From contig NZ_CP082839.1 of assembly GCF_019930585.1 (NCBI RefSeq), positions 3,406,001 through 3,470,000 on the forward strand: DNA of 64,000 nt. The letters run 5' to 3'. Positions 21,286-26,313 of the stretch are shown piece by piece. The DNA comes from Sphingomonas nostoxanthinifaciens. Lineage in GTDB: Bacteria; Pseudomonadota; Alphaproteobacteria; Sphingomonadales; Sphingomonadaceae. Every line of letters begins with the position of its first letter. Within the stretch, counting starts at the first letter, position 1. The notes beneath the pieces were generated by a model. That model made no database searches. It was not told the origin of the DNA and saw nothing but the letters and a program-made list of their open reading frames with translations. The position numbers were made by a program, and so were the translations under genes.

Positions 21286-24606
<3,321 letters not shown>

Positions 24607-24625
24607 GTTATGCGAGGCCTGCTAG

Positions 24626-24660
24626 CCCTCTCCCCGCGGGGAGAGGGTTGGGTGAGGGGA
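24626..24660. repeat. REP-like palindromic repeat, left copy
   Basis: A 22-bp perfect palindrome (CCCTCTCCCC-GC-GGGGAGAGGG, 24626-24647) is followed by TTGGGTGAGGGGA. The same element occurs in direct orientation at 25014-25046 and inverted at 25088-25124, so the DUF559 gene is bracketed by inward-facing copies. Confidence 0.85.
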
Positions 24661-24667
24661 TCCGCCG

Positions 24668-25012
24668 ATGACGGGAAGATTGACGCCGGTCGCACGCGAT
24701 CTGCGACGGACGGCTACCGATGTGGAGGCGGCGTTGTGGCAGCGCCTGCGCAATCGCAAGGTGGAAGGCACGAAGTTCGTGCGGCAGCTTCCAATCGGTC
24801 AGCACGTCGCCGACTTTGCCAGCCGTTCGCTCAAGATCGTGATCGAACTGGATGGCGGCCAGCATGCGACGAGCGCGACGGACGCGGAACGCACGCGGCT
24901 GATCGAGGCACGGGGCTACACCGTAATCCGCTTCTGGAACAACGACGTAGCCGAGAACATGGACGGGGTGCTGGAAGAAATACGTCGAACCATCCTCCTG
25001 GCACGCGGCTGA
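24668..25012 (+). CDS. DUF559 endonuclease-like protein inserted between carA and carB
   Basis: 114 residues. It has the Vsr/PD-(D/E)xK-like fold of DUF559: LWQRLRNRKVEGTKFVRQ, then the core DFASRSLKIVIELDGGQH with acidic and histidine residues, then RLIEARGYTVIRFWNNDV. DNA-cleavage activity is inferred from the fold, not shown. It is transcribed against carA and carB and is enclosed by REP-like repeats at 24626-24660 and 25014-25124, eight bases from one and one base from the other. That arrangement suggests a small mobile or domesticated unit dropped into the carAB operon. Confidence 0.85.
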   Translation: MTGRLTPVARDLRRTATDVEAALWQRLRNRKVEGTKFVRQLPIGQHVADFASRSLKIVIELDGGQHATSATDAERTRLIEARGYTVIRFWNNDVAENMDGVLEEIRRTILLARG

Positions 25013-25013
25013 G

Positions 25014-25046
25014 CCCTCTCCCTTGAGGAAGGGGATTGGGTGAGGG
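25014..25046. repeat. REP-like repeat, middle copy
   Basis: CCCTCTCCC, an imperfect complement (GAGGAAGGGG), then ATTGGGTGAGGG: the same order as the left copy at 24626, directly after the DUF559 stop. The palindrome is degenerate. Confidence 0.75.
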
Positions 25047-25087
25047 TGGTCTGCCGCAGACAGGACAAGCTCGGCTGCGCCTCGCAT

Positions 25088-25124
25088 CCCCTCACCCCAA
25101 CCCTCTCCCCGACAGGGAGAGGGA
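25088..25124. repeat. REP-like repeat, right copy (inverted)
   Basis: CCCCTCACCCCAACCCTCTCCCC with GACA and then GGGAGAGGG is the reverse-oriented version of the left copy. It abuts the carA stop codon, so carA transcripts end in a hairpin here. Such palindromes can also stabilise mRNA ends. Confidence 0.85.
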
Positions 25125-25125
25125 G

Positions 25126-26313
25126 TCATGCCGCCGCGCTCCGCAGTTGGCGCACGAACTGCTCGAACAGATAGTGGCTGTCTTGCGGGCCGGGGCTCGC
25201 TTCGGGGTGATATTGCACGCTGAAGGCGGGCTTGTCGGTCAGGCGCAGGCCGGCGAGGCTGCCGTCGAACAGCGAGACGTGGGTCGGCTCGGCATTGGCG
25301 GGCAGGGTTTCCGTATCCACCGCAAAGCCGTGGTTCATGCTGGTGATCTCGACGCGGCCCGCGCCCTCGATGTCGCCCACGCGCTTGACCGGATGGTTCG
25401 CGCCGCGATGGCCCTGGTGCATCTTGTAGGTCTTCGCGCCGACCGCGAGGCCGAGCAACTGGTGGCCGAGGCAGATGCCGAAGATCGGCTTGCCGACCTC
25501 CAGCAATTCGCGGATCACCGGCACGGCATAGGCGCCGGTCGCGGCCGGATCGCCCGGCCCGTTCGACAGGAACACGCCGTCGGGCGCGTGCGCCATCACA
25601 TCCTCGAAGGTCGCGGTCGCGGGCACGACGGTCACGCGCGCGCCAGCGGCGACGAGGTTGCGCAGGATGTTGCGCTTCAGCCCGTAATCGATCGCGACGA
25701 CGTGCGGCCCGTCCGGATTGGCGGCGTGGGTGGCATAGCCTTCGCCCAGCGTCCACAGCCCGTCGTCCCACTTGTAGCTCTGGGTCGAGGAGACTTCCTT
25801 GGCGAGGTCCATGCCTTCCAGCCCCGGCCACGCGCGCGCCTGCGCCCGCAGTGCCTCGAGATCGAACTCACCCTTGGCATTGTGGGCGATGACGCCGTTG
25901 GGCGCGCCCTCGATGCGGATGGCGCGGGTCAGCGCGCGCGTATCGACGCCGGCCAGCCCGATGCGACCATTGTTGCGCAGCCACGCGTCGAAGCCCTGCG
26001 TCGCGCGGAAATTGGAGGGATCGGTCACGTCCTCGCGCACGATGCAGCCCAAAGCGTGCGGGTTGATCGCCTCGATATCCTCGGCGTTCGCGCCGACATT
26101 GCCGATATGCGGGAAGGTGAAGGTGACGATCTGCCCGGCATAGGAAGGATCGGTCATCACCTCCTGATAGCCGGTCATCGCCGTGTTGAAGCACACCTCG
26201 CCCACCGCGGCGCCCTCCGCGCCGAAGCCGCGGCCCCAGATGACCGAGCCGTTGCCGAGGACGAGAACCCCCGTCGCTCCTTCTGGCGCGCGTGATGACG
26301 TGGCGTCGGCCAT
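25126..26313 (-). CDS. carA: Carbamoyl-phosphate synthase small subunit (glutaminase)
   Basis: 395 residues. The N-terminal CarA-specific domain (VCFNTAMTGYQEVMTDPSYAGQIV) is followed by a class I glutamine amidotransferase domain with the nucleophile cysteine in GICLGHQLLGLA and the glycine-rich FLSNGPGDP loop. It supplies ammonia to CarB. The start at 26313 gives the standard N-terminus. It diverges from yqeY over 136 bases. Confidence 0.97.
   Translation of the reverse strand: MADATSSRAPEGATGVLVLGNGSVIWGRGFGAEGAAVGEVCFNTAMTGYQEVMTDPSYAGQIVTFTFPHIGNVGANAEDIEAINPHALGCIVREDVTDPSNFRATQGFDAWLRNNGRIGLAGVDTRALTRAIRIEGAPNGVIAHNAKGEFDLEALRAQARAWPGLEGMDLAKEVSSTQSYKWDDGLWTLGEGYATHAANPDGPHVVAIDYGLKRNILRNLVAAGARVTVVPATATFEDVMAHAPDGVFLSNGPGDPAATGAYAVPVIRELLEVGKPIFGICLGHQLLGLAVGAKTYKMHQGHRGANHPVKRVGDIEGAGRVEITSMNHGFAVDTETLPANAEPTHVSLFDGSLAGLRLTDKPAFSVQYHPEASPGPQDSHYLFEQFVRQLRSAAA

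Follow-up and report, generated by a model that had tools for sequence, protein, structure and literature searches.

DUF559 genes are physically paired, across bacteria, with short repeats of intrastrand-triplex architecture. The sequences of gene and repeat change together, even inside single genomes, and the repeats are abundant almost only where the genome has a DUF559 gene. Proximity, orientation and size, co-evolution, co-occurrence and shared borders are independent lines of evidence, and together they show the pairing. That DUF559 and the repeats form a functional pair is, in our judgement, nearly certain. The best explanation overall, which we consider quite likely, is a two-part system in which DUF559 is the dedicated nuclease of the repeats. 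Two old unknowns are joined in this way, the widespread nuclease family DUF559 (YcjD in E. coli) and the BoxC/PIT repeats.

The DUF559 unit between carA and carB

The window, a stretch of 64,000 nucleotides from Sphingomonas nostoxanthinifaciens, carries a DUF559 open reading frame on the strand opposite to the flanking carB and carA. Both neighbours are named from their own protein sequences. The features of the locus are as follows.

21286–24606, minus strand: carB, neighbour
24626–25123, no strand: whole unit (498 bp), an inward inverted repeat pair around DUF559
24626–24658, plus strand: left triplex-architecture repeat (pyrimidine arm, loop, purine arm, linker TT, third strand GGGTGAGGG), tail toward the DUF559 gene
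24668–25012, plus strand: DUF559 gene, 114 aa, PF04480 match, predicted PD-(D/E)XK nuclease of Vsr / I-Bth0305I fold
25012–25125, no strand: short inverted dimer, of the same build as 10 dimers elsewhere in the source genome
25014–25046, plus strand: direct repeat copy, degenerate, that forms the left end of the short inverted dimer
25088–25123, minus strand: right triplex-architecture repeat, linker TTG, tail toward the DUF559 gene
25126–26313, minus strand: carA, neighbour

The left repeat reads CCCTCTCCCCGCGGGGAGAGGG-TT-GGGTGAGGG and is a perfect palindrome in its first 22 bases. A sequence-only reading of this DNA had described inward-facing palindromes around DUF559 at the carA-carB junction, with 22 perfect bp at the left, and both the coordinates and the motif were confirmed. 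It had not set apart the purine third strand of each intact repeat. In an intact repeat, a pyrimidine arm is followed by the purine arm complementary to it and then by a third strand, again of purines, that mirrors the purine arm when A is read as A or T. The extra direct copy noted in the same reading is present but degenerate (80% over 35 nt). Together with the right copy it makes up a short inverted dimer of a type present elsewhere in the source genome, with an interior like that of the dimer at locus L015 (AAGCTCGGCTNCGCCTCGC).

Judged by sequence, the repeats of the unit have the layout of BoxC/PIT/TM intrastrand-triplex motifs and are not RAYT-type REPs. The published BoxC/PIT consensus is CCCTCNCCCN3-6GGGNGAGGGN3GGGNGAGGG (Holder et al. 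2015, PMC4666352; Hoyne cited there). The right repeat fits this consensus fully, spacing included, whereas the left one has a linker of 2 nt instead of 3. The feet of the repeats read AGCCC and GGGTGAGGG, and neither a GTAG nor a CGTC tag is found at the hairpin foot. The proposed analogy of DUF559 and its repeats with RAYTs and REPs holds insofar as the two belong together far beyond this locus, but the repeats are BoxC/PIT-like and the Y1 transposase model PF01797 had 0 matches in the source genome. A RAYT origin of the source-genome repeats was ruled out by this lack of a match.

Loci and control windows with a motif were counted under strict rules (arms of 7 nt, a third strand that mirrors exactly, a search range of 200 bp to either side), which had replaced a looser first finder beforehand. 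Under strict rules, no repeat besides the two intact ones of the unit is detected in the 64-kb window, and 400 kb sampled from the source genome gave the repeat in 2 of 1980 windows of 200 bp. Because the repeat is this rare, its presence at the unit is not due to chance. The length of 498 bp compares with a median of 449 bp in 97 such units (5–95%: 416–534).

The source genome has five DUF559 genes and all five are bracketed by repeats, the spellings of which differ. The strict finder detects them at four of these loci and misses L004, where the copies are worn. Four types were distinguished.

Type a: CCCTCTCCC..GGGAGAGGG..GGGTGAGGG
Type b: CCCCTCCC..GGGAGGGG..GGGGTGGG
Type c: CCTCCCC..GGGGAGG..second hairpin..GGAGGGG
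Type d: as type a, plus a second hairpin ahead of the third strand

The pattern GGTTGGGTGAGGG with at most one mismatch had 18 matches in the source genome and 16 for the reversed control, so the raw count, being barely above the control, is no evidence. The setting of the matches, by contrast, is informative: the 12 exact ones correspond to 11 elements, namely 10 short inverted dimers and the window unit. In the dimers, one repeat has the linker TT and its partner usually NNG.

At six other carA-carB junctions of the same genus (five whole, one fragmented) other DNA without such a repeat was found, which disposes of the possibility, raised by the sequence-only reading against itself, that the arrangement is fixed in all relatives. 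Within the genus, the inserts at this junction are unrelated. Elsewhere, DUF559 units recur in several alphaproteobacterial lineages, either between carA and carB or immediately upstream of carA, and in both orientations (window 24607–25125; L025, L027, L053, L095, L163 and L164).

DUF559 genes and repeats are paired and change together

A match to the Pfam family PF04480 was found in 26 of the 60 genomes that represent the order; for the phylum the figure is 53 of 150, and for an E. coli-like family 9 of 60. In the first test, a local alignment of the upstream flank with the reverse-complemented downstream flank, 60 of 62 loci lay above the 95th percentile of control windows. The strict finder located the motif on at least one side in 87 of the 94 loci of a first set, and on both sides in 58, against 4 of 372 control windows. 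A second set of 80 named loci, 77 of them usable, was analyzed with the finder already fixed; the motif was found in 71 (both sides, 48) and in 2 of 439 controls. This second set spans Alpha-, Beta-, Gamma- and Deltaproteobacteria, Mariprofundus, Candidatus Kuenenia, Gastranaerophilales, a Nitrospirae and a Daviesbacteria genome. After removal of the duplicates L169 and L218, and of loci with a domain score below 60 or with flanks shorter than 200 bp, the pooled set comprised 169 distinct loci, with the motif within 200 bp in 156 and on both sides in 104. Pairs were oriented inward at 97 loci, outward at 11 and directly at 38, these classes not being exclusive. The median distance from the domain to the third strand is 38 bp at one end of the gene and 19 bp at the other. 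DUF559 genes without repeats, which the sequence-only reading had named as evidence against it, are a small part of the collection: they account for 13 of the 169 loci under the strict rule, and some loci have repeats that keep the architecture in another spelling.

On the DUF559 tree the repeat type changes 12 times, against a mean of 37.6 after shuffling (0 of 200 shuffles); 25 of the 97 rows, which have no clear type, were not counted. Both ends of a locus have the same repeat type in 50 of 55 loci. Because several types often occur in one genome, labels could also be permuted inside genomes, and species history is therefore removed. With 52 loci from 17 genomes, 7 changes were counted against a permuted mean of 25.9 and minimum of 18 (0 of 300), and the two ends were alike in 44 of 48 loci against a permuted mean of 18.5 and maximum of 32 (2000 permutations). 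These data show that DUF559 and repeat sequences change together, even inside single genomes.

An exact mirror of the purine arm was present in the third strand of 110 of 175 inward hairpins, versus 3.9% for shuffled arms. When only asymmetric arms were considered (n = 143), the third strand was a mirror in 62% and a direct copy in 11%. Third strands mirror the purine arm across repeat families, and this mirror covariation is comparative evidence for selection on triplex-forming ability. The E. coli form of the repeat was reported to form a triplex in vitro, with a cellular footprint pointing to minor or transient formation (PMC4666352).

The census of type a, b and c repeats covered the 60 genomes of the order Sphingomonadales, and a DUF559 gene was called intact above 60 bits. 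At least five repeats were found in 17 of 20 genomes with an intact gene and in 0 of 40 without (Fisher 2.9e-12), the latter having two repeats at most. The 60-bit and five-copy thresholds were chosen after the tables had been seen; at Pfam's own cut-off the figures are 17 of 26 versus 0 of 34 in the order and 6 of 9 versus 1 of 51 in the E. coli-like family. The contrast recurs inside families, as in G016 and G021 (DUF559 present, 46 and 50 type-a sites) versus G001 and G009 (neither). Three genomes, G002, G012 and G045, have an intact DUF559 gene, yet only 1–3 repeats. In the E. coli-like family, BoxC cores are abundant in 6 of 6 genomes with intact DUF559 and in 1 of 54 others (Fisher 1.4e-7); they number 11 to 45 in these six and 0 to 3 in the others except G220. 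Repeats are thus abundant almost only where the genome has a DUF559 gene. The exception is G220, an assembly of 90 contigs in which 71 BoxC cores but no DUF559 match were found; recent loss, a gap in the assembly or another mobiliser may be the reason. At G204:C1:1789060–1791093, five BoxC cores, the first four 446 bases apart, were observed, possibly a larger tandem repeat built on the motif.

Short dimers, E. coli BoxC and the probable mobile form

Inward same-type neighbours within 1500 bp were collected from the seven genomes with positions listed fully enough, single-copy contigs being left out. The 69 pairs fall into two size classes and no other size: 60 pairs are shorter than 150 bp and none of these contains DUF559, and nine pairs of 371–500 bp have DUF559 inside in 9 of 9 cases. 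G023 has twenty short dimers of about 95 bp. By eye, the inner border CAGGCCC(A/T)CCCCC is common to its DUF559 unit and 16 of the 20 dimers, and a further border of the unit, GGGTGGGAACGAC, is shared with some of them. As with a MITE, the short non-coding elements of this genome have the ends of a gene-bearing partner. An A-linker repeat is joined to a G-linker repeat in 20 of 23 dimers of G023 (49% expected). This joining of two linker types in inverted pairs is a further likeness to BoxC/PIT/TM, since an A/B linker rule was described for five E. coli inverted pairs (PMC4666352). Dimers sit at many unrelated sites inside one genome, and their flanks are unlike.

The unit of about 500 bases had been read as having the shape of a minimal mobile element, but comparison of the loci does not support a recent move of the unit itself. 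All-against-all comparison revealed no pair of loci with high identity confined to the unit between unlike flanks; the 19 short blocks listed were 54–135 bp long and lay inside the gene. Recent transposition of the whole unit was rejected on these grounds. Several DUF559 units are syntenic between species. The gene looks mostly vertically inherited, and the short dimer, not the whole unit, seems to be what moves. No target-site duplication was seen, and the one E. coli site compared with and without its dimer has an imprecise footprint.

In E. coli, ycjD (b1289) is a DUF559 gene (167 bits), and its stop codon is followed at a distance of about 168 bp by copy 9 of the BoxC elements in PMC4666352. 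In strain TC_EC10 a BoxC sits right at the stop of ycjD, and the end of a second ycjD survives as a remnant. In the E. coli-like family, each of the six loci with an intact gene has a motif that starts 14–63 bp behind the domain; further motifs follow, and none lies in front. In E. coli itself, ycjD occurs in 3365 of 5426 genomes. BoxC copies would appear to persist in strains without it, judging from several extra BoxC matches per genome. In four E. coli without ycjD the site is occupied by a regulator and an RND efflux operon, a replacement also described in PMC12817139; because another operon takes the place, the ycjD-less site is no empty site, and a clean one was ruled out. Strains differ in whether they have the BoxC dimer at hrpB-mrcB, and its boundary there is imprecise. 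Several deletions or rearrangements at lldD-trmL and a larger deletion at ygfF-gcvP likewise gave no clean dimer footprint among the strains compared. In E. coli O111:H11 (L267) an internal deletion in the hrpB-mrcB dimer has left a bare hairpin that lacks third strands. At L096, the DUF559 gene is followed by BoxC-like motifs arrayed at intervals of about 80 bases.

Proposed role of the nuclease, alternatives and related systems

The window protein matches PF04480 with 128.8 bits (gathering cut-off 20.6). An AlphaFold2 model from 55 sequences had a pLDDT of 87.5, and the top solved folds among the matches listed by VIA-align were 3hrl, an endonuclease-like protein of Neisseria (Z 17.8), I-Bth0305I (Z 13.8) and Vsr (Z 10.2); the absence of a fold from these matches carries no information. 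Residues E20, D49, E60, D62, H66 and D72 are invariant in the 55 sequences. On this modelling, DUF559 is predicted to be a single-domain PD-(D/E)XK nuclease of Vsr-like fold. YcjD was earlier assigned to the PD-(D/E)XK superfamily, near Vsr (PMC1189080). Sequence matches to AB5 toxin chains were dismissed as chance (E above 0.1). PADLOC gave no match for the window protein or YcjD, and a defence role was set aside for this reason.

We propose that the repeat would fold as a hairpin of pyrimidine and purine arm with the mirror-image purine third strand, and that DUF559 would recognise it, probably as a folded single strand. The enzyme would then nick or cut at the repeat, and short dimers may be copied or moved in trans as a result, so that DUF559 would spread or maintain them in the way that RAYTs serve REPs. 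Cleavage, mobilisation and triplex recognition by DUF559 are activities that we infer from sequence comparisons. Dispersal of the dimers by DUF559 is likely; whether the triplex, and not just the hairpin, is the recognised form is to us an evenly balanced question.

DUF559 might instead be a structure-specific repair nuclease that removes or resolves folded repeats, which would be tolerated in large numbers only in its presence and would spread by other means. The PD-(D/E)XK Vsr-like fold agrees with such a role, Caulobacter VsrA has been called a repair enzyme (PMC12907096), and the phyletic pattern fits tolerance equally with dispersal. Repair leaves unexplained, however, why repeats of its own type bracket each gene in a unit of fixed size and why dimers and DUF559 unit have common inner borders, and we think it unlikely. 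Rather more improbable is homing, by which DUF559 would cut repeat-bearing or empty sites and the repeats would spread by gene conversion, not transposition, with the flanking copies as homology. The closest mechanistically studied fold, I-Bth0305I (sequence match E 0.0017), and the failure to find precise insertion footprints speak for it, but homing into alleles would not give one genome's dimers at many unrelated sites with unlike flanks.

Repeats do lie near both ends of the gene, at the median distances given above, as would be expected if they served the DUF559 gene and adjacent genes as terminators or mRNA hairpins. Mirror third strands would nevertheless be useless in a terminator, dimers exist without the gene and the repeat type tracks gene phylogeny inside genomes, which makes regulation very improbable. 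An ordinary REPtron, with the repeats owed to a RAYT and DUF559 carried along as a passenger, shares the logic of inverted palindromes, dimers and a cognate nuclease; it is scarcely credible, as a Y1 transposase match is absent from 12 of the 17 repeat-rich genomes, the source genome included.

The dedicated-nuclease reading still has much in common with REPtrons and REPINs (PMC8266576, PMC3733652, PMC3116915): inverted palindromes flank a cognate nuclease, a single genome has several families, short non-autonomous inverted dimers occur, and the parts co-evolve. The mostly vertical inheritance of DUF559 also resembles that of RAYTs, which were described as domesticated transposases (PMC8266576). 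The differences are that DUF559 is a PD-(D/E)XK and not an HUH/Y1 enzyme, and that its ends are triplex motifs and not hairpins tagged with GTAG or CGTC. On account of these two differences, we regard the DUF559-repeat pair as a categorically new system, although it could be grouped with REPtrons if the logic were weighed more. To our knowledge, the REPtron is the only system with the same logic.

I-Bth0305I, an EDxHD homing endonuclease that lies in a group I intron, is related here through fold similarity, as the second-best solved fold among the matches listed. Caulobacter VsrA has the same fold, a reported DUF559 domain and a link to 5mC repair, but T:G mismatch repair tied to a cytosine methylase was proposed for it (PMC12907096), and the accessible text of that article contains no link to repeats. 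For the E. coli copies of the repeat, no mobility activities were reported in their surroundings, and the accessible main text of the same article mentions neither DUF559 nor ycjD (PMC4666352). The nuclease and the repeat families of other spellings go beyond that description. In the accessible open-licence PubMed Central literature, no link of DUF559 or ycjD to REP, BoxC or triplex repeats was found.

It is, in our view, as likely as not that this is a novel class of repeat dispersal: a solitary nuclease with the Vsr fold and about 115 residues would recognise DNA folded into an intrastrand triplex and would mobilise inverted dimers of about 100 bp in trans. If true, the source of BoxC/PIT elements, those of E. 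coli included, would have been found, and DNA triplexes would have a selected role in living cells. The intergenic DNA of very many bacteria is shaped by such small elements. Genomes with several DUF559 genes and several repeat types provide cognate and non-cognate pairs, so nuclease and repeats can be tested together.

A diverged DUF559 paralogue that has lost the ELDGGQH motif was observed in Sphingomonadaceae (L043, L044, L090 and L091; 41–50 bits with the seed model). It is the sole DUF559 of G018 and G042, which have no repeats of types a–c. Four large alphaproteobacterial genomes (G109, G113, G129 and G197) contain many broken DUF559 genes, as if copies decayed frequently.
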